Source: Polaromonas sp. UBA4122 | GTDB lineage: Bacteria; Pseudomonadota; Gammaproteobacteria; Burkholderiales; Burkholderiaceae_C | Length of the DNA: 38,941 nt | NCBI GenBank assembly: GCA_002381615.1 | Contig: DFWY01000059.1 | Coordinates: 1 to 38,941, forward strand | Reading direction: 5' to 3' | Part shown: one piece after another, positions 20,228-35,634 of the stretch | Layout: every line of letters starts with the position of its first letter | Numbering within the stretch: position 1 is the first letter of the stretch | Notes under the pieces: generated by a model | Seen by the model: only the letters and a program-made list of their open reading frames with translations | Databases searched by the model: none | Told to the model about the DNA's origin: nothing | Position numbers and translations under genes: made by a program

Positions 20228-21134
20228 ACACCTGCGCCGCAAGAGCATCAGGACGTGAGTGTGTCCACGGCGGCGGCGTATGACCAGTTGCAGGCGCAGG
20301 GCCTGGTGGTGGCGCGCAAGAATCGCGGGTTTTTTGCCCGGGATTCATCATCAAATACGGGTCCAGTGACCGCCAGTCGAGCGCAGGCAGCTATTAAAAA
20401 CATAGCGAATGCGCCGGTGGACGCCACCGCCCTGATTCGCGGCATGTTCCATCAAGTCAGCAACAAGCCGCAGCCCGGCATGGGGGTATTTCCGTCGGAC
20501 TGGCTGGAAACCAGCTTCATGCCGGCGGCGGTCCGCAAAGTCGTCAGCGCCAGCGCGCTGTGGGCGTTTCCGTTGCAATATGGCGAACCTTTGGGCGATG
20601 CGGGCCTGCCGTCGTTCGGTCTCGCAAAAGCTCAGCGTGCTCGACGGCCTGCAGTGCACCATTTACGTCAGCGGTTTTGCCAAAATTCTTGCGCCCGGCT
20701 GGCGCGTCGGTTTCATGGCCGCGCCGCCGGATCTGGTCGAACGCCTGCTCAACACCAAGCTGCTCGCCACCCTGACCACGCCCGCCTTGCTTGAAAAAGC
20801 GCTGGCCTGGTGCATAGACCAGGGCCAACTGCGCCGACACGCCGAACGTATCCGCAGCCGGCTCGACCAGGCGCGCGCTCGCAGCGTCAGGCTCGCGCTG
20901 GCGCACGGCTGCAGTTTTGCAGCGGAGCCGGCGAGGCTGTTTGGCTGGGTGGACACCGGTGTAGACACCGACGCATTGGCGCAGCGCATGCTGGACGAGG
21001 GTTATCTGATTGCGCCCGGCGCGCTATTTCATGCGGCGCGGCAGCCCAGCACCTTGATGCGGATTAACTTCGCGACGACGCAGGAGGCAGCGTTCTGAAA
21101 GGTGTTTGCGCGTTTGCGGGATGGGGTGCGGTGA
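20228..21134 (+). pseudogene. MocR-type (GntR-aminotransferase) regulator, degraded
   Basis: Two pieces of a MocR regulator are recognisable. The first reads SVSTAAAYDQLQAQGLVVAR plus the linker and start of the aminotransferase domain up to QYGEPLGDAGLP (20255 to about 20610). The second, in another frame, reads IYVSGFAKILAPGWRVGFMA and onward to the C-terminus (about 20650-21095). The N-terminal helix-turn-helix is incomplete, the middle of the aminotransferase domain is deleted at the frame change, and near the end the expected Trp codon after AAF is TGA (21096-21098), followed by a readable tail KVFARLRDGVR to 21134. The neighbouring divergent operon was probably its target. A decayed repeat may lie inside at about 20360-20410. 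Confidence 0.85.
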
Positions 21135-21700: not shown

Positions 21701-22201
21701 ATGAAACCGCTCTTGAGCCTTTGTTTTTTCGCAGCCAGCCTGGCCTTGGGACAGGCCGCCCTGGCCCAAAGCCCCATCGTGACCTCCCAGCTCCGCGCCC
21801 AGCGCGTGGAGATGGTGGATGGCAAAGCTGTGCTCGAGCCCGCGGCTGAGGGCAAGCCGGGTGACGTCATTGAATACAGCAGCACCTACCGCAATGGCGG
21901 CACAGCGGCGGTAGCAAAACTACTGGCCACCGTGCCCGTGCCCCCTGGTACCACCTTCATCGCCGGCAGCGCCGAACCTGCGCAAGCGCAGGCCTCAACC
22001 GACGGTACCCGTTTCGCGCCCATGCCTTTGACGCGTACCGTCAGGCAGCCTGACGGCAGTGAGCGCAAAGAGCCCGTGCCGCTGACCGAATACCGCGCCC
22101 TGCGCTGGGAAATCGGCACGCTTGCCGCTGGCGGTAGCGCCGTGGTCAGTCTGCGGGTGCACATCGATTTGCCTGCGGCAGCACTACCCGCTAAGCCGTG
22201 A
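21701..22201 (+). CDS. Small exported DUF11-domain protein
   Basis: The 166-residue protein has a signal peptide (about 1-22, cleavage near ALAQS) followed by one DUF11-like beta-sandwich: KPGDVIEYSSTYRNGGTAAV, a strand with PVPPGTTFIAGSA, and the last strand SAVVSLRVHIDL. Such domains are stacked in bacterial surface proteins and also occur singly. It opens a four-gene locus with larger proteins of the same type, so it may be an accessory or chaperone-like subunit. The ATG at 21701 is used because it gives the signal peptide directly; an upstream in-frame codon at 21668 does not. The gap to the next gene is 112 bases and contains an AGGAGAG ribosome site. Confidence 0.85.
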   Translation: MKPLLSLCFFAASLALGQAALAQSPIVTSQLRAQRVEMVDGKAVLEPAAEGKPGDVIEYSSTYRNGGTAAVAKLLATVPVPPGTTFIAGSAEPAQAQASTDGTRFAPMPLTRTVRQPDGSERKEPVPLTEYRALRWEIGTLAAGGSAVVSLRVHIDLPAAALPAKP

Positions 22202-22313
22202 TGTAAGCCCGCATTCCCGAGTTGTTGCGCCTAACCACAGCGTTCGGCTCTTTTCGCGTAAGTCGTTTGTTTGTTGAGTTGCCTTTTTTTATAAATCAGG
22301 AGAGAAACCCGTT

Positions 22314-24950
22314 ATGTACGCCACCCCCACGAGTCCCCAGCCGTTGCGGCTGCAGCACTTTTTCACCCACTGGATTGTGGGATTGTTCGTTGCCTTTCTG
22401 TTGGCTCTGGCCAGCATGGCGGCGCATGCTGCAGCACCAGCGGCGGGCACGTCCATCAGTAACCAGGCCTCGGCAACCTACGCAGACGGCTCGGGGCTTG
22501 CGCGTACGGTCAGCTCCAACGTGGTCAGCACCACGGTGACACAAGTGACCAGCATGACCCTGACGGCCAACGGCGCCCAGACTGCCACCCCTGGCAGCGT
22601 GGTCTATTACCCGCACACCCTCACCAACACGGGGAACGGCGCGGACACGTTTAACTTCACCAGCAGCAACACTGGTGGCTTCACGATGACGAGCGTGCAG
22701 ATATTTGCTGATAACGGCAGTGGGCAACCGACCGGCTCGGCCATCACTTCCACCGGAACAGTCGCGGCTGGTGCAGCCTTCAAGTTCATCGTGGTCGGCA
22801 CACTGCCTGCCACGGCGACTGCAACGCAGACCAATCCGATCGTTGTAACTGGAACCAGCGTATTCACCAGCGGCGTGACCGCGTCCAACACCGACACCAC
22901 CACGGTCACCACCAACGCGGTGGTGACTTTGACCAAGTCGGTCAGCGCTTCCAGCGGCGCGGCAGGTTCAGGTCCGTACACCTACACCCTGACCTACACG
23001 AACACGGGTAACAGCACGGCCACCGCCGTAGCGATCACTGACGTGATTCCTGCGGGCATGACCTACGTGACTGGCTCGGGTCGCTGGAGCGTGACCGGCA
23101 CCACGGCGCCGAGCGACACTGGCAACTCTGTTGGCACTGGGCTCAACACGCTGACATCTTCATACACCTCAGGTACCTTCCTGGCGACACTAGCCCAGGT
23201 GACGGCAGGCCAGTCGGGCACCCTCAACTTCCAGGTGAAAGTGGATGCTGGGGTTGCTCCCGGTGTTCTGAACAATACCGCGACCACTTCGTACAACAAC
23301 GGCGCAGCTACGGTGGCCGGCTCGTCCAACACCGTTCCTTTCACGGTGACGCAAAGCGCCAGTGTGACCCTGACGGGTGCAACGGTGGCAGGTCTCGCCG
23401 CCCCGGGCTCCACGGTTAGCTTCACCAACGTGGTGACCAACACCGGCACGGGCACGGACACGTTCAACATCACCCTGGGCGCTAGCAACAACTTCCCTGC
23501 GGGAACCACCTTCCAGCTGTTCAAGAGCGGCGGCACCACGCCGCTGGTGGACACCAATGGTGACGGCACCATCGACACCGGCCCCTTGGCCGTTGGCGCC
23601 AGCTACAACGTGATCCTCAAAGCCACGCTGCCGCCTAACGCCACCAATACCGGCGCACCGTTCAGCATCAACAAGATTGCCACCTCGGTGTTCGACCCCA
23701 CCAAGTCGGCAACCGCTGCTGACACGCTGTCAGCCATTGCCAAGGCTTCGGTTGACCTGACCAACAACCTGGCCGCCGCCACCGGCGTGCCAGGCTTCGG
23801 CGCAGGCGCGGAAGCGACTTCGCAGGTCACCAACACCACGAACCCCGGCACCACCACGGTGTTCACGCTGGTTGCCAACAACACCGGCCCGTCGCCCGAC
23901 AGCTACAACCTTGGCGCGAGCACGGTGTCCAACTTTGCCAGTCTGGCCCTGCCTGCGGGCTGGACGGTGACTTTCAAGGCCGACGGCGGCGCAGGTAGCT
24001 GCTCCACCACTGGTGCAAGCATCATCAACACGGGTTCCGTGGCTGCAGGTGGTTCTGCAACCGTCTGTGCCGTGGTGACCGTGCCGGCAGGCTATGCCGC
24101 AGGAACGCAAGACCTGTATTTCCGCACACTGTCGCCCAACTCCGGTGCAAGCGACATCCTGCACGACGCCGTGACGGTTAACGCTGTGCGCTCCCTCACC
24201 ATCACGCCGAATGGCGCTGGCCAAACCTACCCTGGCGGCTCTTATGTGTACAGCCACACGCTGACCAACAACGGTAACGTGCTTGAAGGTAACGGTACGC
24301 TCAGCACCCTCACCCTGCCCGTCGCCAACAACCAGAGCGGCTGGACTTCGACGCTGTACTACGATCTGAATGGCAACGGCGTGCTGGATGCGGCCGATCC
24401 CCTGCTCACTGGAAATCTGAACGCTGTTCTGTCCGCCGGACTGGCTCCTGGTCAGTTCATCACCGTGTTCGAAAAGGTGATCGCTCCCAGCGGAGCGGCA
24501 CCGGGTGCCGTGAATACGAGCACCATCACGGTGACCACTGCCAACGGCAGCTACACCACCACGGTGCCGGCAGCGGCTGTGGCCACGGACAGCACCACGG
24601 TCATCGCCGGTAACCTGACCCTGGTCAAGGCGCAGGCGCTGGATACCGTCTGTGCAGGTCCAACGGGCTCCCCCGTTTACACCACCGCCATCTTGAGCGC
24701 CAAGCCCGGCCAATGCGTGCTGTACCAGATCACGGTGACCAACGTGGGTTCTGCCGATGCCACCACCATCGTTGTGTCTGACGGTACGCCGTCCTACACG
24801 AAGTTGAGCAGCGCGCCAACTACCTCTGCAGGCTCGATGGCAGCAGGCGTTCCAGTTGTTGGCGCTACGGGATCGTTCAGCGCCAACGTCGGCACCTTGA
24901 GCGCCAGCCAGTCGGCTGTCGTGGTCTTCGGCGTGAAGATCGACCAGTAA
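22314..24950 (+). CDS. Large exported DUF11-repeat surface protein
   Basis: The 878-residue protein has a long-type signal peptide (cleavage near AHA, about residue 39) followed by several DUF11/Ig-like beta-sandwich repeats, recognisable by P-G-x-V-x-Y-x-H-x-L-x-N-TGN (for example VVYYPHTLTNTGNG, YTLTYTNTGNS and SYVYSHTLTNNGN). It is very rich in Thr, Ser, Ala, Gly and Asn and poor in charged residues. Two loops, DTNGDGTID and DLNGNGVLDAAD, look like calcium sites. It ends abruptly on the last strand, VVVFGVKIDQ. Asn is almost always AAC, suggesting high expression. A ribosome site AGGAGAG precedes the start and a strong terminator follows, so this is probably the major product of the locus. 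Confidence 0.9.
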   Translation: MYATPTSPQPLRLQHFFTHWIVGLFVAFLLALASMAAHAAAPAAGTSISNQASATYADGSGLARTVSSNVVSTTVTQVTSMTLTANGAQTATPGSVVYYPHTLTNTGNGADTFNFTSSNTGGFTMTSVQIFADNGSGQPTGSAITSTGTVAAGAAFKFIVVGTLPATATATQTNPIVVTGTSVFTSGVTASNTDTTTVTTNAVVTLTKSVSASSGAAGSGPYTYTLTYTNTGNSTATAVAITDVIPAGMTYVTGSGRWSVTGTTAPSDTGNSVGTGLNTLTSSYTSGTFLATLAQVTAGQSGTLNFQVKVDAGVAPGVLNNTATTSYNNGAATVAGSSNTVPFTVTQSASVTLTGATVAGLAAPGSTVSFTNVVTNTGTGTDTFNITLGASNNFPAGTTFQLFKSGGTTPLVDTNGDGTIDTGPLAVGASYNVILKATLPPNATNTGAPFSINKIATSVFDPTKSATAADTLSAIAKASVDLTNNLAAATGVPGFGAGAEATSQVTNTTNPGTTTVFTLVANNTGPSPDSYNLGASTVSNFASLALPAGWTVTFKADGGAGSCSTTGASIINTGSVAAGGSATVCAVVTVPAGYAAGTQDLYFRTLSPNSGASDILHDAVTVNAVRSLTITPNGAGQTYPGGSYVYSHTLTNNGNVLEGNGTLSTLTLPVANNQSGWTSTLYYDLNGNGVLDAADPLLTGNLNAVLSAGLAPGQFITVFEKVIAPSGAAPGAVNTSTITVTTANGSYTTTVPAAAVATDSTTVIAGNLTLVKAQALDTVCAGPTGSPVYTTAILSAKPGQCVLYQITVTNVGSADATTIVVSDGTPSYTKLSSAPTTSAGSMAAGVPVVGATGSFSANVGTLSASQSAVVVFGVKIDQ

Positions 24951-24968
24951 TACGGTCATGCGCTCTTT

Positions 24969-25000
24969 GCGGAGGGGGGCGAAAGCCTCCCTCCGCTTTT
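24969..25000 (+). terminator. Rho-independent terminator after the large DUF11 gene
   Basis: GCGGAGGGGGGC (24969-24980) pairs with GCCTCCCTCCGC (24985-24996) as a 12-bp stem with one G-T wobble and a GAAA tetraloop, followed directly by TTTT. It lies 19 bases after the stop codon. Its 3' arm and T-tract are shared with the following hairpin (24993-25035), so the two structures exclude each other. Confidence 0.85.
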
Positions 25001-25035
25001 CAGAAGCCGCCTGGATGGCGGCTTCTGAAAAGCGG
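24993..25035 (+). promoter_or_regulatory. Perfect 19-bp hairpin overlapping the terminator (possible anti-terminator)
   Basis: CCGCTTTTCAGAAGCCGCC (24993-25011) and its exact complement (25017-25035) surround a TGGAT loop. The first eight bases of the 5' arm are the end of the terminator stem plus its T-tract, so folding of this hairpin would dissolve the terminator. The arrangement is that of an attenuator between the large DUF11 gene and the 2031-residue gene starting at 25070. It could equally be a bidirectional double structure that insulates the two genes; no leader peptide or ligand-binding domain is visible. Confidence 0.6.
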
Positions 25036-25069
25036 CTCACCGCTAATCAACCGGATCAACTGCTACCTC

Positions 25070-28000
25070 ATGTTTTTTCGCCTGTTGCGCAAACTGCTGC
25101 CTGTCTGCCTGTTACTGCTCTTCTGGGCGGTGGCACAGGCTGCGCCGACGCCAGTGGGCACGGTTATCAGCAACACGGGTTCAGCCACTTATGTGGATTC
25201 GACCACCGGCCTGCCCGCGCGGCTGACCTCCAACACCGTCAACACCACTGTAACTGTGCTGGAGGCGCTCACTCTCGTAGTGAACCAGAATGTACTGGTC
25301 GCCAGCGGCACCCCGTTCGCACTCAGCCATACGCTGACCAATACCGGCAATGCGCTCACCACCTACAGCCTCACCGTCAGCCTTCCGCCAGGCAGTGCTT
25401 TCACGCCCACCAACCTGCAGGTAGTGCGTGATCTCAATGGCAACGGCCGCGTCGATGCGGGCGAGTCCGTTATTCCCGCTGGCGGTACTGTTTCGTTGGT
25501 CCCTGGGGCCAGCGTCAATTTGCTGATCACGGCGCAAGCGCCAGCCACGACGACGCCGGGACGGGCGGCACAGCTGACGTTGACAGCGGTAAGCCAGTTA
25601 CAAGGCGTGAGCGCCAGCAACACCGACACGGTCACGCTCACTGCTGGCGCTGCCATGGTGGTGACGTTGGCCGCTTCCTCTGCCACGGCCGCACCCGCCG
25701 AACTACTTCGTTTGACTGCCAAGACAGACAATAACGGCAGCGTGACGGCAACGCCTACGAACGTGACTGTCAATGGCTCAGCAACGGTTTTGTTGGTGCT
25801 GCGTGTGCCCGTTCCTGCCCATGCAGCGTTTGTCTCTGCCGATGCCTCGACGACCGTGGGTGCGCAAAATATTTACCATGTGCAGGGCACAGCGGCCAAC
25901 CGCTATGTGACTGCTGTGCCCATTGGTGCCACGGTTGACGCCGTGGCGTGGAGTGTTGCCAATCTACCCGCACGCGCCAGCTTGCAGGGGCAATTTTCTG
26001 TGCTCGTTGATGCCAATGCAGCCGGTGCGATTACTGGCACCGCGTATGCCGATTGGACTGATCAAGCGGCTCCTTTGAGTACCACCAGTAATGTTGTGGT
26101 GCTCCCGCTGCCCGTCCGCTTGCCCAGTATTAGTTTTTACACTGGTACGAGTTACACCACACTTTCTAACCAGAATATCGCCGGAAACCCATTGTTTGTG
26201 CAGGTGGATGCTGCCATGTGCAACACCAATCCGACGGAAATTCTCACCTTGCCGTTGACGCTTGTGAGTAAGCTCACCGGCGACACTGAAACCTTTCCCG
26301 CCGTGGAAACGGCGCCCAACACCGGGCTGTTCCGCATCTTGCCCAACGTGCCGACGGCCAATGCGGTCACGCACATTGTGGCCTCGGGCGACGGCATCCT
26401 CGAGGTGCTGCATAACGACCTTATTACTGCCACCATCACGGCCTGCGGCGGCGTTTCGGCTTCTGCCACCACCACACTGCTGATTGACCCTTCAGGCGTC
26501 GTTTACAACAGTGCAACCAACCAGCCGGTGTCGGGCGCCACTGTTCAACTCATCGACGTCACAGGCACGGGCAATGGCGGCAATGCGGGCGGCCCAGCCA
26601 CGGTGTTGCAGCCCGACGGTGTCAAGCCGGCGCCCAGTGTGATCGTCACGGGTGCCGATGGCAGCTACGCTTTCCCGCTGGTGCTGGCAAGTACTTACAA
26701 ATTGAAAATCACCACGCTGGTCGGCTATTTCTTTCCGTCCAAGTTGCCCCCGGCGCTGCAGCCCGCTGGTCGCGTCATTGACCCGCAGGCCTCCTATGGC
26801 AAGGACTTCATCATTGGCGGCGATACCCGGGAGCCGGTGTATTTTGACGTGCCACTTGATGCTGGTGCGACCGGGGGACTGTTCATCCAGAAAACCGCCA
26901 ACAAGACGACGGCCGAAGTGGGTGATTTTGTGGACTATCTGATCAAATTCAACAACGTTACCGCTGCGGCGCTGCCCGGCACGGTGGTTAACGACAACCT
27001 GCCCGCAGGTTTCCTCTACGTGCGTGGCACCGCGCGTCTCAACGGCGCGCTGCTTCCCGATCCGTCTGGCAGCGCCGGCAACGGCCTGCAATTCGCGCTG
27101 GGCAGCATCGCAGTCGGCAGCCAGCCCGCCTTGACCTACCGCGTTCGCGTGGGCGCAGGCAGCCAGGACGGCAACGGCACTAACACTGCACAGGCGGCCA
27201 GTGGCAGCGTGCAATCCAACCGCTCCAGCGTTCGCGTGCAGATCATGGGCGGCGTATTCTCCAACAAGGCCTACCTCATCGGCAAGGTGTTCGCCGGCTG
27301 CCGCAAGGACGACGGACAGGGCGGTGTTCAGGACGCGGGCGACCCCGGCATTCCCGGCGTGCGCATCTACCTTGAAGACGGCACCTATGCGGTGACTGAC
27401 GAGGAGGGCAAGTACAGCTTTTATGGCTTGAGCCCGCGCACCCATGTGGCCAAGGTCGACAGCACCACACTGCCGGCGGGTGCCACGCTCGAAGTGCTGA
27501 ACAACCGCAATGCGCTGGACCCCGCCAGCCAGTTCGTCGACCTCACCAACGGCGAACTGCGCAAGGCCGAGTTTGCCACCGCTGAGTGCACCCCTGCCAT
27601 TCGCGAGCAGATCGCAGCGCGCCGCAAGGCGCTGGCCAACCCCTCGGAAATCCTGCAGGCCGCCGGCACCCTGCTGTCATCCACCCCTGGTGTGGCGACT
27701 GTGGATGCGCGCACCTTGCCGTCAAGCGGGCCCATCGGTTTACCTGGAGCGCTGCAGGGAAAAATGGGTGCTAATGCCACAGCGCAGTTGCCTGGTGCTG
27801 CAGCTCCGCTCGCACCTTCGGCGGGTGCGCTGGGCGCAGTGGGTGACATCGGTGGCCCTTACGCGCCGAATGCCCAAGGCCTGCCCAAGCCGATCTTCAC
27901 TCCGGGCAGCACCCTGCTGGAGTCTGCACAGCCTGCGGCGGGGGCAGCATCCCAGCCGGCCAATGTCGAATCGGCGCCAACGCTTGAACCGCTGGAAGAC

Positions 28001-31000
28001 CTGCTGCCGGCGCTCGGCCCCGATGTTGGTTTTATCGGCTTGCGCAATGACCAGGTGTTGACCAGCGACCAGACCCGCGTGCGGGTCAAAGGCCCGTTGG
28101 GCGCCACCTTCGAACTCCTGGTCAATGACCAAGCCATACCCGTCAGCCAGGTCGGCAAAAAGAGCAGCCTGGAAAAGACGGCAACGGTCGCCTGGGAATA
28201 CATCGGTATCAACCTCAAGCCGGGCCGCAATACGCTGAGCGTGCGCGCTATCGATACCTTTGGGAACGTGCGCGGCAACATGCAGGTCGCCGTGCTGGCG
28301 CCCGGACCACTCGCAAAAATCCAGATGGAAGCCCCGCAGCAGCCCGTGGCCGATGGCGCCACCGCGGTATCGGTTGCCATCCTGCTGCGCGATGCGCAAG
28401 ACCTGCCGGTGGCAGCACGCACCCAGATCACCCTGCAGTCCAGCCTCGGTCAGTGGCAAGCGCCTGATCTTGATCCGTACCAGCCCGGCATCCAGGTGTT
28501 TATTGAAGGGGGAGAAGGGCGCTTCCTGCTGCTGCCTCCGGCCCAGCCTGGCAAGGCCGAGCTTGGCGCCACCAGCGGCACGGTCAAGTCCACCGCCCAG
28601 ATTGAATTCATGCCGAATTTGCGACCCATGATTGCTGCCGGTCTCATCGAAGGGACGATCAATCTGCGCAATCTCAGCCCGTCAGCCCTGCAGCCCGCGC
28701 AAAGCGGTGATGTGTTCGAGCGCCAGATTCAGAGCACCTCGCGCAGCTTCGACAGCGGCAAGGGCGACGTGGCCGTGCGCACAGCGCTGTTCCTTAAAGG
28801 CAAGGTACTCGGCGCTACCCTGCTGACCCTTTCCTATGACTCGGACAAGCCCTCGGACACCACGCTGTTCCGCGACATCCAGCCTAACCAGTTCTACCCG
28901 GTGTATGGCGATTCGTCGGCGCGGGGCTTCGATGCCCAGTCCACCGGCAAGCTGTATGTGATGCTGCAAAACGGCAGCAACTACGCGCTGCTCGGTGACT
29001 ATTCCACCCAGAGCGACAATCCTGCGCGCCAGCTGACGCAATACTCGCGCGCACTCAACGGCGGCAAGGGGCGTTTACAGAAAGGCGCCATCACGGTTGA
29101 GGGCTTCGCCAGCCGCACCTCCAGCACGCAGGTTATTCAGGAATTACGCGCCAACGGCACGTCCGGGCCGTTCCGCTTGAATATCAACGGCGTGGTGAAC
29201 AGCCAGCAGGTTGATGTCATCACACGCGACCGCAATCAGCCCTCGGTCATCGTTAAGGATACGCCGCTGGCAGCCTTCACCGACTATGAAATGGAGCCCT
29301 ACTCCGGCCTGCTGCTGCTCAAGAGCCCGGTGCCCAGCGTTGATGCCGACCTCAATCCGGTTTTCATACGGGTGAGCTACTCCGTCGACTCCGGCGGAGC
29401 CAGGCACGCGGTCGCGGGTGCCGACGTCAAGGTTCAGCTCAACCCAAGTGTGACGCTGGGCGCTACCGCTATCCGCGATGCCGACCCGGCCAATAACCAG
29501 AACCTGACGGGCGTCAACATGACGGTCAAGCTGGGTGACAAGACGGTAGCCGCTGCCGAGGTCGCCCGCAGCACCACCGACCTCCAGGGCAGCGGCTCCG
29601 GCCAGCGCGTGGAGATACGCCATGAAGACCAGCAGCTGCAGGCCCGTATCTGGGGCGTGCGCACCGACGCCGGTTTTTACAACCCCAACAGCCTGCAGTC
29701 GGCAGGCCAGTCGGAATACGGCGCCAAGCTTGGCTACACCGTGGATGAAAAAAACCGGGTGGTGGCCGAGGCCCTGAAAACCGCCAACAGCGTCACTGGC
29801 GCCGAGCAGACCGGCATGGAACTCAAGCTGGAGCACAGCCTGCCGGGCAATGCCAGGCTCGAAGTAGGGGTACGCCACAGTAGCGCCAATGCCTATTCGG
29901 TGTTGTCAGCGTTGCCGCTGCCCGGCACTTCCGCACCCATGGTGCCATCGCTGTCAGGTCTTGCCACAAGCTCAGCGCAGGCAGGCTTCACCAGTGCGCG
30001 GGTCAAGCTGAGCGTGCCGGTTCCCGGCGTGCCGCAAGCCGATGTCTATGGTCTGGCCGAATACGCGATCGACGGCAGCGGCGGGCGCGAGATCGGCATT
30101 GGCGGCAACTATGCGCTCAACCCGACCACCAAGCTGTATGCCCGCCACGATTTCATCAACAGCCTGAACGGCCCTTACACCCTCAACCCGGCGGTGTCGC
30201 AATACACCACGGTGGCCGGCCTCAACACCGAGTTGTCGGACAGTACGCAGTTGTTCAACGAGTACCGCATGGGTGACAGCCTCAATGGCCGCAGCAGCGA
30301 AGCCGCCGTTGGCTTGCGCAGGCTCTGGCGACTGAACAACGGCCTCGGTGTGACCGGCAGCGTGCAGCGCATCAAGCCGATGTCGGGTGTGGTCATCGAC
30401 GACTCCAGCGCTGTGACCTTGGGCGTTGACTACACCGCCGCAACCGATTGGAAAGCTTCCGGCCAGGCGCAGTGGCAAAGCTCCGCCACTTCGCGCAGCT
30501 GGCTGCTCACCGCAGCACTGGCCAACAAGCTGGATAAAAACTGGACGCTGCTTAACCGCGCTCTTTACAGCGTGCAAAGCAATCTGGCAGCAAGTGGCGG
30601 GCAGCGCGAACTCGTCACTGCACAGTCTGGCTTCGCCTATCGCCCCGTGGAGACCGATGTCTGGAATGCGCTCGGCCGTATCGAATACAAGCGCGACGCA
30701 GACAGTACATTGGGCGCAGGCTTGAGCCGTGATGAATCCGCCTGGATAGTCTCCACCCACGTCAATGTTCAGCCCAACCGCCGTTGGTTGATGACCGGGC
30801 GCTACGCCGCCAAGTGGGCGACAGACCGTTCCAGCGGCATAGCAAGCCGATCGTTCACCCAGCTGATTGGTGGCCGTTCCACCTGGGACCTCACAGACCG
30901 CTGGGACATAGGCCTGCAGGGCTACCGCACCTGGGGCGACGGCGCCGCTGAAAACGCCGTCGGCGTCGAGGTGGGCTACCTGGCCTGGAAAAACCTGTGG

Positions 31001-31165
31001 CTTTCATTGGGCTACAACTTCAAGGGCTTCAGCGTCGCCGACCTGGCTGGCGAAGCCTACACCCAGCGCGGCGTATACCTGCGGATGCGTTTCAAGTTTG
31101 ATGAAAACCTGTTCGAGCCTGCAGCCGCAGCACCTTCACCCCGCCTGCCGGCCAGCAAATCATGA
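25070..31165 (+). CDS. Giant exported protein: DUF11 and SdrD-like domains fused to an outer-membrane beta-barrel
   Basis: The 2031-residue protein has a signal peptide (about 1-24). In order: DUF11-like sandwiches with a DLNGNGRVDAGE calcium loop (about 25-470), a CarboxypepD-regulatory-like domain (about 477-560), a DUF11 domain (about 600-720; GGLFIQKTANKTTAEVGDFV), an SdrD_B-like domain (about 733-800; GIPGVRIYLEDGTYAVTDEE), a Pro/Ala-rich linker (about 870-985), Ig-like domains (about 1000-1190), and about 830 residues of alternating amphipathic strands ending YLRMRFKFDENLF. The last part looks like a large outer-membrane barrel. It is translationally coupled to the next gene by an ATGA overlap. 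Function is unknown; secretion, anchoring or assembly of the neighbouring surface proteins is the natural guess. Confidence 0.88.
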   Translation: MFFRLLRKLLPVCLLLLFWAVAQAAPTPVGTVISNTGSATYVDSTTGLPARLTSNTVNTTVTVLEALTLVVNQNVLVASGTPFALSHTLTNTGNALTTYSLTVSLPPGSAFTPTNLQVVRDLNGNGRVDAGESVIPAGGTVSLVPGASVNLLITAQAPATTTPGRAAQLTLTAVSQLQGVSASNTDTVTLTAGAAMVVTLAASSATAAPAELLRLTAKTDNNGSVTATPTNVTVNGSATVLLVLRVPVPAHAAFVSADASTTVGAQNIYHVQGTAANRYVTAVPIGATVDAVAWSVANLPARASLQGQFSVLVDANAAGAITGTAYADWTDQAAPLSTTSNVVVLPLPVRLPSISFYTGTSYTTLSNQNIAGNPLFVQVDAAMCNTNPTEILTLPLTLVSKLTGDTETFPAVETAPNTGLFRILPNVPTANAVTHIVASGDGILEVLHNDLITATITACGGVSASATTTLLIDPSGVVYNSATNQPVSGATVQLIDVTGTGNGGNAGGPATVLQPDGVKPAPSVIVTGADGSYAFPLVLASTYKLKITTLVGYFFPSKLPPALQPAGRVIDPQASYGKDFIIGGDTREPVYFDVPLDAGATGGLFIQKTANKTTAEVGDFVDYLIKFNNVTAAALPGTVVNDNLPAGFLYVRGTARLNGALLPDPSGSAGNGLQFALGSIAVGSQPALTYRVRVGAGSQDGNGTNTAQAASGSVQSNRSSVRVQIMGGVFSNKAYLIGKVFAGCRKDDGQGGVQDAGDPGIPGVRIYLEDGTYAVTDEEGKYSFYGLSPRTHVAKVDSTTLPAGATLEVLNNRNALDPASQFVDLTNGELRKAEFATAECTPAIREQIAARRKALANPSEILQAAGTLLSSTPGVATVDARTLPSSGPIGLPGALQGKMGANATAQLPGAAAPLAPSAGALGAVGDIGGPYAPNAQGLPKPIFTPGSTLLESAQPAAGAASQPANVESAPTLEPLEDLLPALGPDVGFIGLRNDQVLTSDQTRVRVKGPLGATFELLVNDQAIPVSQVGKKSSLEKTATVAWEYIGINLKPGRNTLSVRAIDTFGNVRGNMQVAVLAPGPLAKIQMEAPQQPVADGATAVSVAILLRDAQDLPVAARTQITLQSSLGQWQAPDLDPYQPGIQVFIEGGEGRFLLLPPAQPGKAELGATSGTVKSTAQIEFMPNLRPMIAAGLIEGTINLRNLSPSALQPAQSGDVFERQIQSTSRSFDSGKGDVAVRTALFLKGKVLGATLLTLSYDSDKPSDTTLFRDIQPNQFYPVYGDSSARGFDAQSTGKLYVMLQNGSNYALLGDYSTQSDNPARQLTQYSRALNGGKGRLQKGAITVEGFASRTSSTQVIQELRANGTSGPFRLNINGVVNSQQVDVITRDRNQPSVIVKDTPLAAFTDYEMEPYSGLLLLKSPVPSVDADLNPVFIRVSYSVDSGGARHAVAGADVKVQLNPSVTLGATAIRDADPANNQNLTGVNMTVKLGDKTVAAAEVARSTTDLQGSGSGQRVEIRHEDQQLQARIWGVRTDAGFYNPNSLQSAGQSEYGAKLGYTVDEKNRVVAEALKTANSVTGAEQTGMELKLEHSLPGNARLEVGVRHSSANAYSVLSALPLPGTSAPMVPSLSGLATSSAQAGFTSARVKLSVPVPGVPQADVYGLAEYAIDGSGGREIGIGGNYALNPTTKLYARHDFINSLNGPYTLNPAVSQYTTVAGLNTELSDSTQLFNEYRMGDSLNGRSSEAAVGLRRLWRLNNGLGVTGSVQRIKPMSGVVIDDSSAVTLGVDYTAATDWKASGQAQWQSSATSRSWLLTAALANKLDKNWTLLNRALYSVQSNLAASGGQRELVTAQSGFAYRPVETDVWNALGRIEYKRDADSTLGAGLSRDESAWIVSTHVNVQPNRRWLMTGRYAAKWATDRSSGIASRSFTQLIGGRSTWDLTDRWDIGLQGYRTWGDGAAENAVGVEVGYLAWKNLWLSLGYNFKGFSVADLAGEAYTQRGVYLRMRFKFDENLFEPAAAAPSPRLPASKS

Positions 31166-33717
31166 TGCAAGCCCGTTCACCCTTTGATTTCACCGCGCTG
31201 CGTGTGCTGCGCCTGATGCTGGCCGCCATGTTGGGCTTGGTGGCCAATGTGGCCCTGGCTGCCGGTGGTTCTTATGCGACGGCTGCCGCAACCAGCACCT
31301 ACGCCCAAAGCCTGTGGTGGCTGGACTTCACCGGATACAACGACGCCACAGCAGCGGGTGCAGCTGGACAGCCCTACACCTTTACCTTGCCCGGCGGGGC
31401 GGGTACGTTGACCCTGACAGTTAAAAAAACGGGCGTCGGGACACTAGTTGCCACCGTTTCGCCCGCGTGGACGGGCGGCGGCGCCTTTGGAAATGGTGCT
31501 TACAACGGCATCACCGGGAATCCAAGTCTTTACTGGGCAACGGGGTTGGCGGCTGGCGGGACGGTCACCCCGAGTCTGACATCACTGGTTATGAAGGATG
31601 CTGCTGGCAATGTACGAAATTTCTCTTTAGCAGCAGCGGACGGCGAGAAAACCGATGGCAACGGCTCGGTAGAAAAAATCGTTTACACCAGCACTGCGGC
31701 CTGGAGTCTGACCCACAATGTGATTGGCTATCCCGGTTACAACGGCGGGCCGGTGGTGGTCACGGGTGTGGGTACAACCACCGTTACAGAGACAGGGCCG
31801 GCCACGGGCGATAACAACTACAACGGTTCGGTGATTTTGGCCACGCAGAACCCGACGCAGGTTTCCACGGCCTTCACAGGTAACGAGGCTGCGGTGTTTG
31901 CAGTTTCACTGCCCAAAATCACCTTCATTCTCTCAATCGCCGGGCGGCTCAATGCCGCCGACCAGTTCACCGGCAGCATCGGCTACACCACGCCGTACGC
32001 CAATGTCATAAGTGCCAGCACCAGCGGTGCGGGCACTACGGCGACGACCGGCGCGACCTCAGTGATTGGAACCAATAGCATCACTCTGGGCACGGCCATG
32101 GCTGCTGGCAGTATCTCGGCGCTGTCCAGCTACAACGGAAATATTTCTTGCGTTAACAACGGGCCAGGCGCTGCGGGCTATGGGGGTGTGAGCACGGCGC
32201 TTCCAGCTGGCGTAGGCCCCAGCTTTACCCTGACACCGCAAACCGGCGACGCCATTGTCTGTACGCTCACGCTGACGCCGAAAACCCAGACCGTCAGCGG
32301 CACGGTGTACGGCGACGCCAACCACAACGCCAACCTGGACGCGGGCGAGACGGGCACAGGCGTTGCGGGCTTGTTTGTCAAGCTCGCACCGTCATCAGGC
32401 AGCGTGTGCTCAGGTCCCGCCACGGCAGCAGCAGCAGTGACAGCGGCCACCGGCACCTACAGTCTGCTCAATGTTGCCCAAGGCAGCTACTGCCTGATTC
32501 TGGACAACAACAGCACTTTGAGCGACATTGTCCCGGCCGTGCCCCCAAGCTGGGTCGGCACACAAAACCCCAGCGGCGTGATACAGCTCAGCGTAGGCGG
32601 CGCGCCCCCCTCACCGCAAAACTTCGGTCTATACAACGGATCCAAGCTCAGCGGCACGGTGTTCGCCGACACCGGCGTGGGTACAGGCATCGCCAACAAC
32701 GGCGTCAAAGACGGCGGCGAGCTGGGTATTGCTGGCGTTGCCGTCAACGCCACCGCAGGCGTGGCAAGCGCCACTACCGCCGGCGACGGCAGCTACACCC
32801 TGTGGCTGCCCGCGAGCGTCAGCGGCACGGTCACCATCACGCCCGCGGCACCCAGCGGCGACCTGGCCACCGGCGGCTCGGCTGGCACCACCACCACGGC
32901 AAGCGGTAGCTACACCCGGCCCAGCGTGGGCTTCACGCCAGCGGCAGGGCAAATCTACAGCGGCGTGAACTTCGGCCTGGTGGTCCCCAACACCCAGGCG
33001 CCCAACGGCGCGCAGACGGCGCAACCAGGCACGGTCGTGTTCTACGCCCACACCTTCCAGGCAGGCAGTGGTGGGCAGGTCACCTTCTCACTCGCCAACG
33101 TCGCCAATCCGGCCAGTCCAGCCTGGAGCCAGGTGCTGTATCAGGACAGCAATTGCAACGGCGTACTCGATGCCGGCGAGCCACAGATCACCGCAGCCGT
33201 CACTGTGACGGCAGGGCAGAAGCTGTGCCTCATCGTCAAGCAGTTCGTCCCTGCAGGCGCTGCCATGGGTGCGCTGAACACGGTCACGCTCAGCGCCGCG
33301 TTCAGCTACACCAACGCCAGCCCAGCGCTGTCAAGCACGCTCACTGCCATCGACATCACCACCGTGGGCCTGCCGGGCGCGCTGGCCTTGAGCAAACTGG
33401 TGAACAACGTTACGCAGGGCGGCGTCGCGGCTACATCGGTCAATGCCACGCCGGGCAACACCCTGCAGTACACCCTGACGGCGACCAATAACGGCAGCGA
33501 GTCCCTGTCCGCGCTGGTGATCAACGACGCCACCCCGGCCTTCACTTCCTACCTCTCGGCGGCCTGTCCGGGTTCGTTGCCGTCCGGGATCACAGGCTGC
33601 AGCATAAGCACGCAGCCCGCCGTGGGCGCGCAGGGCGGTCTGCAATGGACCTTCACCGGCTCGCTGGCTCCCAGTGCACAGTTGGCGGTGACGTACCAGG
33701 TCAAGGTCAATCAGTAA
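31162..33717 (+). CDS. Exported SdrD/DUF11 surface protein
   Basis: The 851-residue protein has a signal peptide (about 1-34). A novel-looking N-terminal region (about 35-370) contains YAQSLWWLDFTGYND and recalls surface-adhesin headpieces. Two SdrD_B-like domains follow (about 377-490, GTVYGDANHNANLDAGETG; about 495-600, GTVFADTGVGTG), then a DUF11-like repeat (about 613-730, with DSNCNGVLDAGE) and a C-terminal DUF11 domain (about 740-851) ending AVTYQVKVNQ. The end resembles that of the large DUF11 protein (VVVFGVKIDQ). Its ATG overlaps the stop of the beta-barrel gene, so the two are made together. No LPXTG or PEP-CTERM anchor is present, so it may be held by the barrel protein. Confidence 0.87.
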   Translation: MMQARSPFDFTALRVLRLMLAAMLGLVANVALAAGGSYATAAATSTYAQSLWWLDFTGYNDATAAGAAGQPYTFTLPGGAGTLTLTVKKTGVGTLVATVSPAWTGGGAFGNGAYNGITGNPSLYWATGLAAGGTVTPSLTSLVMKDAAGNVRNFSLAAADGEKTDGNGSVEKIVYTSTAAWSLTHNVIGYPGYNGGPVVVTGVGTTTVTETGPATGDNNYNGSVILATQNPTQVSTAFTGNEAAVFAVSLPKITFILSIAGRLNAADQFTGSIGYTTPYANVISASTSGAGTTATTGATSVIGTNSITLGTAMAAGSISALSSYNGNISCVNNGPGAAGYGGVSTALPAGVGPSFTLTPQTGDAIVCTLTLTPKTQTVSGTVYGDANHNANLDAGETGTGVAGLFVKLAPSSGSVCSGPATAAAAVTAATGTYSLLNVAQGSYCLILDNNSTLSDIVPAVPPSWVGTQNPSGVIQLSVGGAPPSPQNFGLYNGSKLSGTVFADTGVGTGIANNGVKDGGELGIAGVAVNATAGVASATTAGDGSYTLWLPASVSGTVTITPAAPSGDLATGGSAGTTTTASGSYTRPSVGFTPAAGQIYSGVNFGLVVPNTQAPNGAQTAQPGTVVFYAHTFQAGSGGQVTFSLANVANPASPAWSQVLYQDSNCNGVLDAGEPQITAAVTVTAGQKLCLIVKQFVPAGAAMGALNTVTLSAAFSYTNASPALSSTLTAIDITTVGLPGALALSKLVNNVTQGGVAATSVNATPGNTLQYTLTATNNGSESLSALVINDATPAFTSYLSAACPGSLPSGITGCSISTQPAVGAQGGLQWTFTGSLAPSAQLAVTYQVKVNQ

Positions 33718-33909: not shown

Positions 33910-35634
33910 TCACAGCATCTCATCGGGCGCAAACGGCCCGATCAGCTTGAGCATCAGCCTGAGCCCCAGGCTGGCGTCGGGTTCGGTTCTCGAATCTTTC
34001 AGGGTAGAGCCCTGCGGCGCGCGCCAGACCAGTTGACCGTCCACCAACTCAACGCGCCAGGCGCCGCCCGCCAGTGCGGGCTCTATCATGCGAGTTGCCT
34101 CGGCGGACAAGGCGCGGTTGCGGATGACGATGGCGACCTCGCTGTTTTGCAGTTTGGAGCGCAAATCGAGGTTCATCGAGCCGACCACCAGCAGGCGGCT
34201 GTCGATCACCACCACTTTGGCGTGCAGGCTGGCGCGCGAGGCGCCGATGGCGTCACCCGTGGAGCCGCCCACTGAGCCTAAGCGCCTGATGGAGCCCTCC
34301 TGTTCGGCACGCATTTCGTACAGCTCAACGCCCATGCCCAGCAGTGCTTCGCGGTAGCGGGCATAACCTGCGTGCGCGGCGGGGGCGTCGTTGGAAGCCA
34401 GCGAATTGGTCAGCACACGCACGCGCACGCCGCGTTGCCGGAGGTCGGCAAACTGTTTCATCATGCGCTCGCCGGGAACAAAGTAGGACGAAACGATCAG
34501 CAGCTCGGTCTTGGCCTGCGCCATGAGCTGCAGCAGGCCATCGACGGCGGTGTCTTGCGATTCGGCCACGGTGTCGGCGTCGGCGGCAATTTTGGAAGGT
34601 TTGTCCGCCAGCAGGACGGAGGGTGCCCAGGTCCAAGTCAGCAGGCGAAGGTCGGTCGAGTCGGGCAATGCCGGGAGGGTGGTGATGACGCCGTTCGGCG
34701 AGGTGATGATGCGCTCGGTCGTCGTTAGGTTGGGAGTGCTGCGCGTCGTCTGCGTGGTGTTGGTCTGCACAGCGGGGTATTCCGGGGTGCCGGGTCTGGT
34801 GGTGGCGGTAGCTGTACGGGTTTTCGGCTTGAGGGCTTCAATGTCCTCTTTCGTCATCAGCGACTGCACCGGATAGGCCAGCGGGTTGTTCCAGTACTCG
34901 TCAAAGCTGCGCGACAGGTCGCGCGCGATGCGGCCAGCCGCCAGCAGGTCGATGTCTACAAAGTTGGTGCCTTCGCTCTGGCCAAAATAGGTTTCTCCCA
35001 GGTTGCGGCCCCCCACAATGGCCACCGCGTTGTCGGCCGCAAAAATTTTGTTGTGCATGCGCCGCTGCATGCGGGCCACGTCCTTGAGGTTGCTCAGAAT
35101 TCGCAAAAACATCGATCCGCGCCCCCCCGGCAGGGGATTGAACAGGCGCAGTTCGATATTCTTTTCAAAGGCCAGCTTCAACACCTGGGCGTTTTTGCCG
35201 GAGGTGTTGAAGTCATCCAGCAGGATGCGGATGCGCACGCCCCGGTCGGCGGCCTCACGCAGGGCGTCAAACATGCGTTCGGTGGTGTCGTCGGCAAAAA
35301 TGGCGTAGTACTGGATGTCCAGCGTTTTTTGCGCGGCCTTGATCAGCGTCATGCGGCTGGTAAAGGCCAGTTCGGCACTGCCCACGAGTGCAAAGCCAGA
35401 GTCGTTGCGGGTGCCTACCGTGGCGGCACGGGCCTCGATGGCCCGACCCAGCCGGGTTTCCGAGGGGGTGGCCAGTGCCGTGGAAACCGGCCTGTCGACC
35501 TCGCTGGGCAAAGGTGCACAGCCAGTGAGCCAGAAGCCCAAAAGCAGCAGGCACAGCCACCGTGAGTTGCCTGAGCGGTGGGGTGCCGGCGAGGCAAAAG
35601 TTGAAGCGGGGCGCAGCGCGGCGGTGATGGGCAT
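33910..35634 (-). CDS. Phospholipase D-family lipoprotein (cardiolipin synthase-like)
   Basis: The 574-residue protein has a lipobox LTGC (Cys39) and two complete HKD active sites: HNKIFAAD (His194, Lys196, Asp201) and HAKVVVID (His471, Lys473, Asp478). Together they form the single catalytic centre of the phospholipase D superfamily, here of the ClsC-like bacterial group that transfers phosphatidyl groups or cleaves phospholipids. Between the two halves lies an unusual Thr-rich stretch (about 270-325, including TATATTRPGTP and TNTTQTTRSTPN), which looks like an added flexible linker. The start at 35634 gives a proper signal peptide. The gene is convergent with the surface-protein locus and downstream of the ABC-F gene. 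Confidence 0.9.
   Translation of the reverse strand: MPITAALRPASTFASPAPHRSGNSRWLCLLLLGFWLTGCAPLPSEVDRPVSTALATPSETRLGRAIEARAATVGTRNDSGFALVGSAELAFTSRMTLIKAAQKTLDIQYYAIFADDTTERMFDALREAADRGVRIRILLDDFNTSGKNAQVLKLAFEKNIELRLFNPLPGGRGSMFLRILSNLKDVARMQRRMHNKIFAADNAVAIVGGRNLGETYFGQSEGTNFVDIDLLAAGRIARDLSRSFDEYWNNPLAYPVQSLMTKEDIEALKPKTRTATATTRPGTPEYPAVQTNTTQTTRSTPNLTTTERIITSPNGVITTLPALPDSTDLRLLTWTWAPSVLLADKPSKIAADADTVAESQDTAVDGLLQLMAQAKTELLIVSSYFVPGERMMKQFADLRQRGVRVRVLTNSLASNDAPAAHAGYARYREALLGMGVELYEMRAEQEGSIRRLGSVGGSTGDAIGASRASLHAKVVVIDSRLLVVGSMNLDLRSKLQNSEVAIVIRNRALSAEATRMIEPALAGGAWRVELVDGQLVWRAPQGSTLKDSRTEPDASLGLRLMLKLIGPFAPDEML

Follow-up and report, generated by a model that had tools for sequence, protein, structure and literature searches.

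The window analysed here is one entire contig of 38,941 bases from Polaromonas sp. UBA4122 (DFWY01000059.1; genome size 4.17 Mb), and it contains a locus of four genes that probably specifies a surface fibre built by split-domain (donor-strand) complementation, in which the joints are probably locked by Lys-Asn bonds and the chain is rooted in the outer membrane by a beta-barrel protein. The four open reading frames lie at the place and have the sizes assigned to them by the first-pass annotation, an earlier reading of the bare letters:

21701-22201, plus strand: P0005, small exported 'cap' protein of 166 residues (open reading frame)
22314-24950, plus strand: P0004, shaft protein of 878 residues (open reading frame)
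25070-31165, plus strand: P0001, barrel anchor protein of 2031 residues (open reading frame)
31162-33717, plus strand: P0003, putative tip protein of 851 residues (open reading frame)
31162-31165, plus strand: overlap of 4 bases between the barrel and tip genes

P0004, P0001 and P0003 pass the Pfam cut-off of 24.6 bits for DUF11, or CLIPPER (PF01345). P0004 reaches 54.9 bits over four stretches, whereas P0005 remains below threshold in Pfam (18.8 bits), but passes the cut-off for B_ant_repeat in NCBIfam and scores 47.7 bits against a profile of complete domains. In the Pfam/NCBIfam scans P0001 also matches SdrD_B, and P0003 matches SdrD_B and SpaA_3 (82 bits) in addition to DUF11. The earlier description of all four proteins as carrying DUF11/SdrD-like domains therefore stands for DUF11, if weakly for P0005, and for SdrD_B in just two of them, P0001 and P0003. 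A DUF11 search of the whole genome gave four matches, all inside this locus. The signal peptides of the four proteins were assigned by eye, and no lipobox Cys was seen by eye in any of them.

The evidence that carries the fibre interpretation is the complementary truncation of domains at the protein ends. It was read with a whole-domain (CLIP) profile built solely from complete internal DUF11 domains (160 domains, 137 positions), which replaced an earlier one-domain profile that was too weak, and with a donor profile made likewise from complete domains but from their last strands alone. At the C-terminus of P0004, residues 795-876 match profile positions 12-96 alone (29.1 bits) and the protein stops at residue 878; in P0003, residues 759-850 of 851 correspond to positions 10-97 of 137, and in P0005, residues 59-171 of a 177-residue frame correspond to positions 10-101 of 137. 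The N-terminus of P0004 supplies the other part, residues 36-80 matching positions 93-136 alone, weakly (9.4 bits, E 0.068). For the N-terminal hairpin of P0001 the whole-domain profile gives no match at E below 1, and it is the donor profile that detects it. The halves are located as follows:

22434-22553, plus strand: donor hairpin of P0004, residues 41-80, with Asn50 at 22461-22463 (donor profile 17.3 bits)
24609-24947, plus strand: acceptor half-domain of P0004, residues 766-878, with Lys772 (24627-24629) and Asp823 (24780-24782) (profile match)
25148-25267, plus strand: donor hairpin of P0001, residues 27-66, with Asn35 at 25172-25174 (donor profile 11.1 bits, residues 30-63)
33382-33714, plus strand: acceptor half-domain of P0003, residues 741-851, with Lys745 (33394-33396) and Asp789 (33526-33528) (profile match)

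P0004 thus consists of an N-terminal donor hairpin, a string of immunoglobulin (Ig)-like domains and a C-terminal acceptor half-domain; P0003 of a variable N-terminal half, SpaA_3 and SdrD_B domains and a C-terminal acceptor half-domain; and P0005 of an acceptor-type incomplete CLIPPER domain that lacks the reactive Lys and Asp. The donor profile scores -0.6 bits in P0003 and -1.0 in P0005, and neither protein was found to have a donor strand. The sequences contain what characterizes a donor-strand fibre, namely an incomplete Ig-like fold and an N-terminal extension resembling the missing strand, and complementation of half-domains among the proteins of the locus is, at the level of sequence, well supported.

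The same pattern recurs in relatives, which were compared in a first set of 40 regions fetched around barrel relatives and in a named set of 79 loci; the sequences are related, and the counts given here are of non-independent events. Among the 79 loci (matches of at least 20 bits in plus-strand frames, those 15-60 residues from the stop being omitted), matches ending no more than 14 residues from the stop finish at profile positions 88-104 in 129 of 133 cases, compared with 4 of 342 for matches more than 60 residues from it. Because of this difference, the loss of the last strand appears as a property of protein ends and not of the family. The donor profile reaches at least 8 bits in 46 of the 96 large acceptor proteins (shafts and tips) and in 26 of the 79 barrel frames, and at least 5 bits in none of the 42 caps; of 875 shuffled N-termini, 7 score at least 5 bits and 0 at least 8. 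When barrels are divided by the length of their passenger (8 of the 79 being set aside, 6 at locus ends and 2 with a passenger of middle length), scores of at least 3, 5 and 8 bits are obtained for 45, 39 and 24 of the 57 long-passenger barrels, and for 1 (3.7 bits), 0 and 0 of the 14 short-passenger barrels. A loose search for the donor motif had picked some wrong strands, and its donor and shaft counts were discarded in favour of these profile-based ones.

When the C-half and the N-half of each locus were joined in silico, the profile score rose by 10.2-15.5 bits (medians), as against median changes of -2.3 to 0.8 bits for control joins with shuffled or interior pieces. The joins outscored shuffled donors in 157/157 pairs and interior pieces in 153/157, and 157/157 reached position 125 or beyond. 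With the earlier one-domain profile, the P0003 C-half and the P0004 C-half joined to the P0004 N-half (P3C+P4N, 26.1 bits; P4C+P4N, 23.0 bits) scored above the controls tested, among which there was no shuffled P4 donor.

The two halves also appear to divide a reactive site between them. In the crystal structure 9IFR, a DUF11 domain that was renamed CLIPPER contains an intramolecular isopeptide bond involving Lys 715, Asp 748 and Asn 806 (PMC12617251). When a domain of P0001 is aligned with 9IFR, the bond Asn, numbered as in that paper, coincides with the N of the donor-strand motif. The Lys-Asp-Asn triad is present in 119 of the 160 complete domains, and in the terminal half-domains it is divided between two proteins: Lys772, Asp823 and Asn50 are invariant in 24/24 aligned shafts, and the acceptor Lys and Asp are kept in 95/95 large acceptors, comprising 52 called shafts (with donor) and 43 called tips (without). 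Family alignments were used for Lys because an insertion made its reading from the general profile fail; in the rows of the two families, Asp is missing from 3 of the 33 for P0004 and 4 of the 24 for P0003, all of them wrong or cut-off frames. Of 54 frames called shafts, 52 carry the donor Asn; the two exceptions (L142, 923 residues; L160, 909 residues) are tip-like proteins whose matches are due to chance, and they were counted with the tips. Among the 47 donor-positive barrel frames, some of which may be internal domains, the Asn is aligned in 39, displaced by the alignment in 2 and absent in 4, and 2 (L150, L152) look like chance matches. The division into shafts and tips is approximate, since L167 (918 residues), counted as a shaft, resembles a tip, and L093 (1058 residues) and L096 (863 residues), counted as donor-less, resemble shafts with a wrong frame start; one 'tip' (L094, 335 residues) is a wrong frame.

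The caps lack these residues. In P0005 the Asp position is occupied by V, and by I, V or L in 24/24 rows of its family, the window included. By hidden Markov model (HMM), a hydrophobic residue or Gly replaces Asp in 40 of 42 caps, the other two, L089 (222 residues) and L102 (263 residues), being truncated tip or shaft frames misclassified as caps. By alignment, Lys is present in 0/41, again including the window, and Asp in 1/41, compared with none in the same 40 by HMM. A covalent Lys-Asn joint between proteins is therefore likely as far as can be judged from residue conservation, and it would probably be self-closing, because completion of the domain restores the arrangement of Lys, Asp and Asn seen in CLIPPER domains of the isopeptide type.

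We infer the binding of the halves, the formation of the bond, the order of tip, shaft and anchor, the role of P0005, and the export and direction of growth of the fibre from these patterns, and the model can be outlined as follows. All four proteins would be exported by Sec. P0005 would probably hold or shield the donor strand reversibly until use, as a periplasmic chaperone or a reversible end cap; such holding is suggested by the occurrence of an open but dead acceptor beside open, chemically complete ones. At the surface or in the barrel lumen, a donor hairpin would slide into an open acceptor, and the Lys-Asn isopeptide bond would close by itself without an enzyme. The N-terminus of the shaft would complete the acceptor of the tip or of another shaft, and the N-terminus of the barrel protein would complete the last shaft, so that the chain becomes rooted in the outer membrane. 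The tip would thus act as acceptor alone, the shaft as donor and acceptor, and the barrel anchor as donor alone.

The first-pass annotation had predicted a beta-barrel in residues 1190-2031 of P0001, and the models agree. This protein is composed of an N-terminal donor, a passenger and the barrel, and its further domains are:

25652-26104, plus strand: CLIPPER-type domain of P0001, residues 195-345 (63.1 bits, whole-domain profile)
26879-27256, plus strand: complete CLIPPER domain of P0001, residues 604-729 (119.6 bits; phmmer E 1.4e-6 to 9ifr_A)
28637-31162, plus strand: predicted giant outer-membrane beta-barrel, residues 1190-2031 (AlphaFold2, Foldseek)

From an alignment of 39 sequences, AlphaFold2 folds the 842-residue piece into a meander of strands, 32 of them of at least 10 residues within piece residues 241-821, with a mean predicted local distance difference test (pLDDT) of 72.9 and a predicted template modelling (pTM) score of 0.62; 124 of the 842 residues are below 50. 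Most of the best-ranked Foldseek matches are barrels of the outer membrane (SlpA, TonB receptors, LptD, SprA, PapC), with E values of 1.4e-8 for SlpA and 7.3e-7 for SprA; among the 50 matches listed, template modelling (TM) scores do not exceed 0.27, and SlpA and SprA have about 8-12% identity. No Pfam family, known autotransporter barrels included, matches the piece at E up to 1, and its identity to five named Polaromonas relatives is 76-86%. Residues 1190-2031 are thus predicted from modelling to form a very large outer-membrane beta-barrel. A family link to SlpA or SprA was dropped because the TM-scores are too low; both are very large outer-membrane barrels, as is predicted for P0001, and no family link is shown.

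Such a barrel might serve mainly as an export pore, usher-like or of the two-partner secretion kind, and not as a covalent root, an explanation that is compatible with the fibre model and that we regard as possible but doubtful. The great size of the predicted barrel, the presence of the export barrels SprA and PapC among its distant structural matches, and a second architecture (see below) in which a separate fibre gene adjoins the barrel gene are in its favour. However, if the barrel protein were purely a pore, it is not evident what its N-terminal donor strand would be for. Among the roles proposed earlier for the barrel (exporting, anchoring or assembling its partners), that of fibre anchor is favoured, and the proposal of a dedicated system of barrel and partners, perhaps a fibre, is supported, the matching half-domains supplying the physical link that had been overlooked. 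Assembly of a surface layer (S-layer), also suggested then, was dropped for want of specific support.

Several observations weigh against the split-domain fibre. A weak internal match can also finish early, as that of P0004 residues 506-598 does at position 104 (17.2 bits, a score under the 20-bit limit applied to the 79 loci). The donor profile stays below 3 bits in 12 of the 57 long-passenger barrels, in some of which (L090 and L118, for example) the motif is visible by eye. The gain on joining halves is a consistency check and partly circular, because the donors were picked with a related strand profile, and with the one-domain profile the joins to the P0001 donor do not stand out: P4C+P1N scores 14.4 bits against 8.0-13.4 for shuffled donors, with no clear separation, and P3C+P1N scores 18.0, inside its shuffled range of 12.9-18.7. 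The counts come from related sequences, as noted above; the TM-scores of the barrel do not exceed 0.27 among the matches listed; and, with respect to the export route, the one usher of the genome is on another contig and two secretins are also elsewhere in the genome. For the covalent joint in particular, not every complete domain keeps the triad, so that a domain can work without the bond, and some barrel donors have no Asn (Ser in L097 and L130, Ala in L153 and L162, and Gly in L070 of the first set), so that the root is not joined covalently in every case.

The last two points, with 41 of 160 complete domains lacking a full triad, are also those that would favour donor-strand complementation without any covalent bond, in which Lys, Asp and Asn matter for folding alone; classical donor-strand fibres do hold without such bonds. 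This explanation is nevertheless unlikely, because Lys and Asp are kept in 95/95 large acceptors that stop before their own Asn and are lost in the caps, a split that is unexpected if their role is purely structural. In the species of the five loci whose barrel donor lacks the bond Asn (L070, L097, L130, L153, L162), a non-covalent root is implied.

AlphaFold2 models the shaft, P0004, as a row of domains rich in strands (mean pLDDT 81.8), and its matches in a fold search were for the most part generic Ig-like domain strings. In the single-chain model the hairpin of residues 41-80 is predicted with confidence (pLDDT of 85-92 by block); its strands, at 47-50 and 53-57, are spaced like those of the internal complete domain. 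Since these confident strands need a partner, and since the donor and acceptor of the shaft match about as well as other pairs do, the hairpin might complete the C-terminal domain of its own chain, giving a closed ring and hence no polymer. This is improbable, because tips have an acceptor without a donor and barrel proteins a donor without an acceptor, so that partners on other chains are needed. In the acceptor half-domain of P0004 (24609-24947), two Cys are kept in most aligned shafts and likely form a disulphide.

In the tip protein, P0003, the SpaA_3 domain is located as follows:

31933-32277, plus strand: SpaA_3 domain of P0003, residues 258-372 (82 bits, E 4.6e-23)

In seven Polaromonas relatives the last 240 residues are 66-78% identical to those of P0003, whereas the first 330 residues are 26-38% identical in six of the seven and 81% in the closest, and Pfam content differs among eight tips. 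This variability would fit a variable binding tip.

Homologues of the locus do not occur mostly as single genes. Among 87 Polaromonas genomes, the same 19 have both the long barrel in full length (E <=1e-172) and the shaft (E <=1e-60), and at those levels the two are never apart; two further genomes have weak shaft matches and nine further ones other barrel relatives, and the cap is found in 23 of the 87. Barrel relatives occur in 28 of the 87 genomes of the genus and in 59 of 299 of the family. In the first set, 19 of 40 regions keep the order of the four genes, all on a single strand, although five of the 19 have a tip broken by undetermined bases or by the end of the contig or region, and this order, for which a search in other Comamonadaceae had been proposed, does recur there. 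Because it is conserved, chance is unlikely as the cause of the layout. Five regions, one of which (L062) has its tip fragment on the other strand, are cut by contig ends and hold a partial gene set; two (L079, L080) have cap, shaft, barrel and then a long frame running past the region end; two (L083, L084) have diverged and contain short shafts. Two cap genes stand apart from this pattern: in G029 (C27:20471-20914) a cap-type gene occurs without a barrel or shaft match, and G016 has a second, partial cap copy (C1:1891474-1891782).

The co-occurrence of shaft and long barrel in the same 19/87 genomes speaks against the idea that the locus holds independent DUF11 surface proteins beside an S-layer-like barrel of the SlpA kind, their truncated ends being a quirk of the family. 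Deinococcus SlpA is the best Foldseek match of the barrel among the matches listed, and DUF11 proteins are common at surfaces (PMC12617251), but truncation is confined to C-termini (129/133 as against 4/342) and donors to the expected N-termini, and this idea is very improbable. Membership in the chaperone-usher, sortase or autotransporter families was likewise dropped, as there was no match to an usher or PapD-like protein, a sortase or an autotransporter barrel: Pfam scans of the four proteins gave neither usher (PF00577) nor PapD-like chaperone, and a sortase search, which was positive for 3 of 14 control genomes, gave 0 matches here.

The remaining 12 regions of the first set (L071, L073-L078, L081, L082, L085-L087) have another architecture, in which a DUF11 fibre frame of 564-2854 residues, in some cases cut by the region end, adjoins a separate barrel frame of about 1,100-1,200 residues. 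In the named set, 50 of the 57 long-passenger barrels have a shaft (a donor-bearing acceptor) nearby, as against 0 of the 14 short-passenger barrels. An acceptor of either kind is found near 56 of the 57 long-passenger barrels, all but L132, and near 2 of the 14 short-passenger ones, namely in L094, which is situated at the edge of a contig, and in L122, where the barrel frame is incomplete. Most short-barrel loci carry a DUF11 fibre chain instead, and there seem, therefore, to be two routes for building a long fibre beside the same barrel, as a single long chain or from many plugged pieces.

Long barrel and shaft occur together in records of Polaromonas, Ramlibacter, Variovorax, Acinetobacter, Psychrobacter and Alkanindiges, and also of Pseudomonas, Gallionella, Geobacteraceae, Opitutae, Limisphaerales and Balneolaceae, several of which are metagenome bins and may be misnamed; the barrel donor is below 3 bits in some of these records, such as L115, L116 and L157. 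A related gene set, with the shaft split into two frames, is found on an Acinetobacter haemolyticus plasmid. Outside Comamonadaceae, from Acinetobacter to Verrucomicrobiota, the position of the tip is variable, a tip-like gene lying upstream in several Acinetobacter and Alkanindiges records. A Psychrobacter locus (L163) has two cap and two shaft genes beside a single barrel gene.

Chaperone-usher and type V pili have an acceptor-only tip and a shaft with both donor and acceptor, and chaperone-usher systems also have an outer-membrane barrel; autocatalytic bonds are formed between the capsid subunits of phages; and archaeal threads, being archaeal, have no outer-membrane barrel. The present locus resembles both types of pili in the logic of tip and shaft, and chaperone-usher systems in the barrel, but its shaft is a multi-domain rod of 878 residues, no enzyme was seen, and its protective partner would mimic the acceptor and not the donor. 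The nearest idea in the literature is the archaeal thread (Saci_0406), in which donor-strand complementation is combined with a proposed inter-subunit bond (PMC9715654). That thread is, however, a homopolymer of one subunit, with the bond proposed between the N-terminal alpha-amine of Asp24 and Asn57 two subunits along, whereas here it would join the Lys and Asn of one split domain. SpyTag/SpyCatcher and the RrgA-derived pairs likewise rejoin a split isopeptide domain covalently, but they are man-made (PMC5487036, PMC5333627) and the pair proposed here would be natural. The CLIPPER domain of 9IFR and the Gram-negative fibrillar adhesins belong to the same domain family as this locus; in those adhesins the bond is intramolecular, within a single chain that has an OmpA-like anchor (PMC12617251), whereas in the present locus a terminal domain is shared out between one protein and the next. 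The terms 'donor strand', 'split' and 'SpyTag' have 0 occurrences in the main text of that paper. No description of such a system was found among the matches listed in open PubMed Central papers, a body of literature from which subscription papers and preprints are largely absent.

These loci may well represent a widespread and undescribed class of self-ligating fibres, in which tip, shaft and anchor are welded end to end without a sortase, chaperone-usher machinery or another enzyme and a dead acceptor serves as a reversible protector of the donor. If the model is correct, a natural split isopeptide pair builds a covalent fibre in a Gram-negative genome without a sortase match, and a function can be assigned to loci of the type 'DUF11 plus unknown barrel'. 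It would also provide candidate protein-ligation pairs from many species, a natural counterpart of laboratory protein-glue tags, suggest a reason why some relatives encode a single giant fibre chain beside a separate barrel, and make the rooting of a fibre in the outer membrane a testable question.

A promoter scan gave 0 sites where 2.5 were expected and is uninformative. Upstream of the locus, two overlapping frames at 20255-21098 of the window (plus strand) have the appearance of the remains of a MocR-type regulator, one being aminotransferase-like by eye and the other having a weak GntR match alone. The downstream neighbour, at 33910-35634 on the minus strand, encodes a PLD-family protein (PLDc_2, 138.8 bits) with a start that looks lipoprotein-like by eye.

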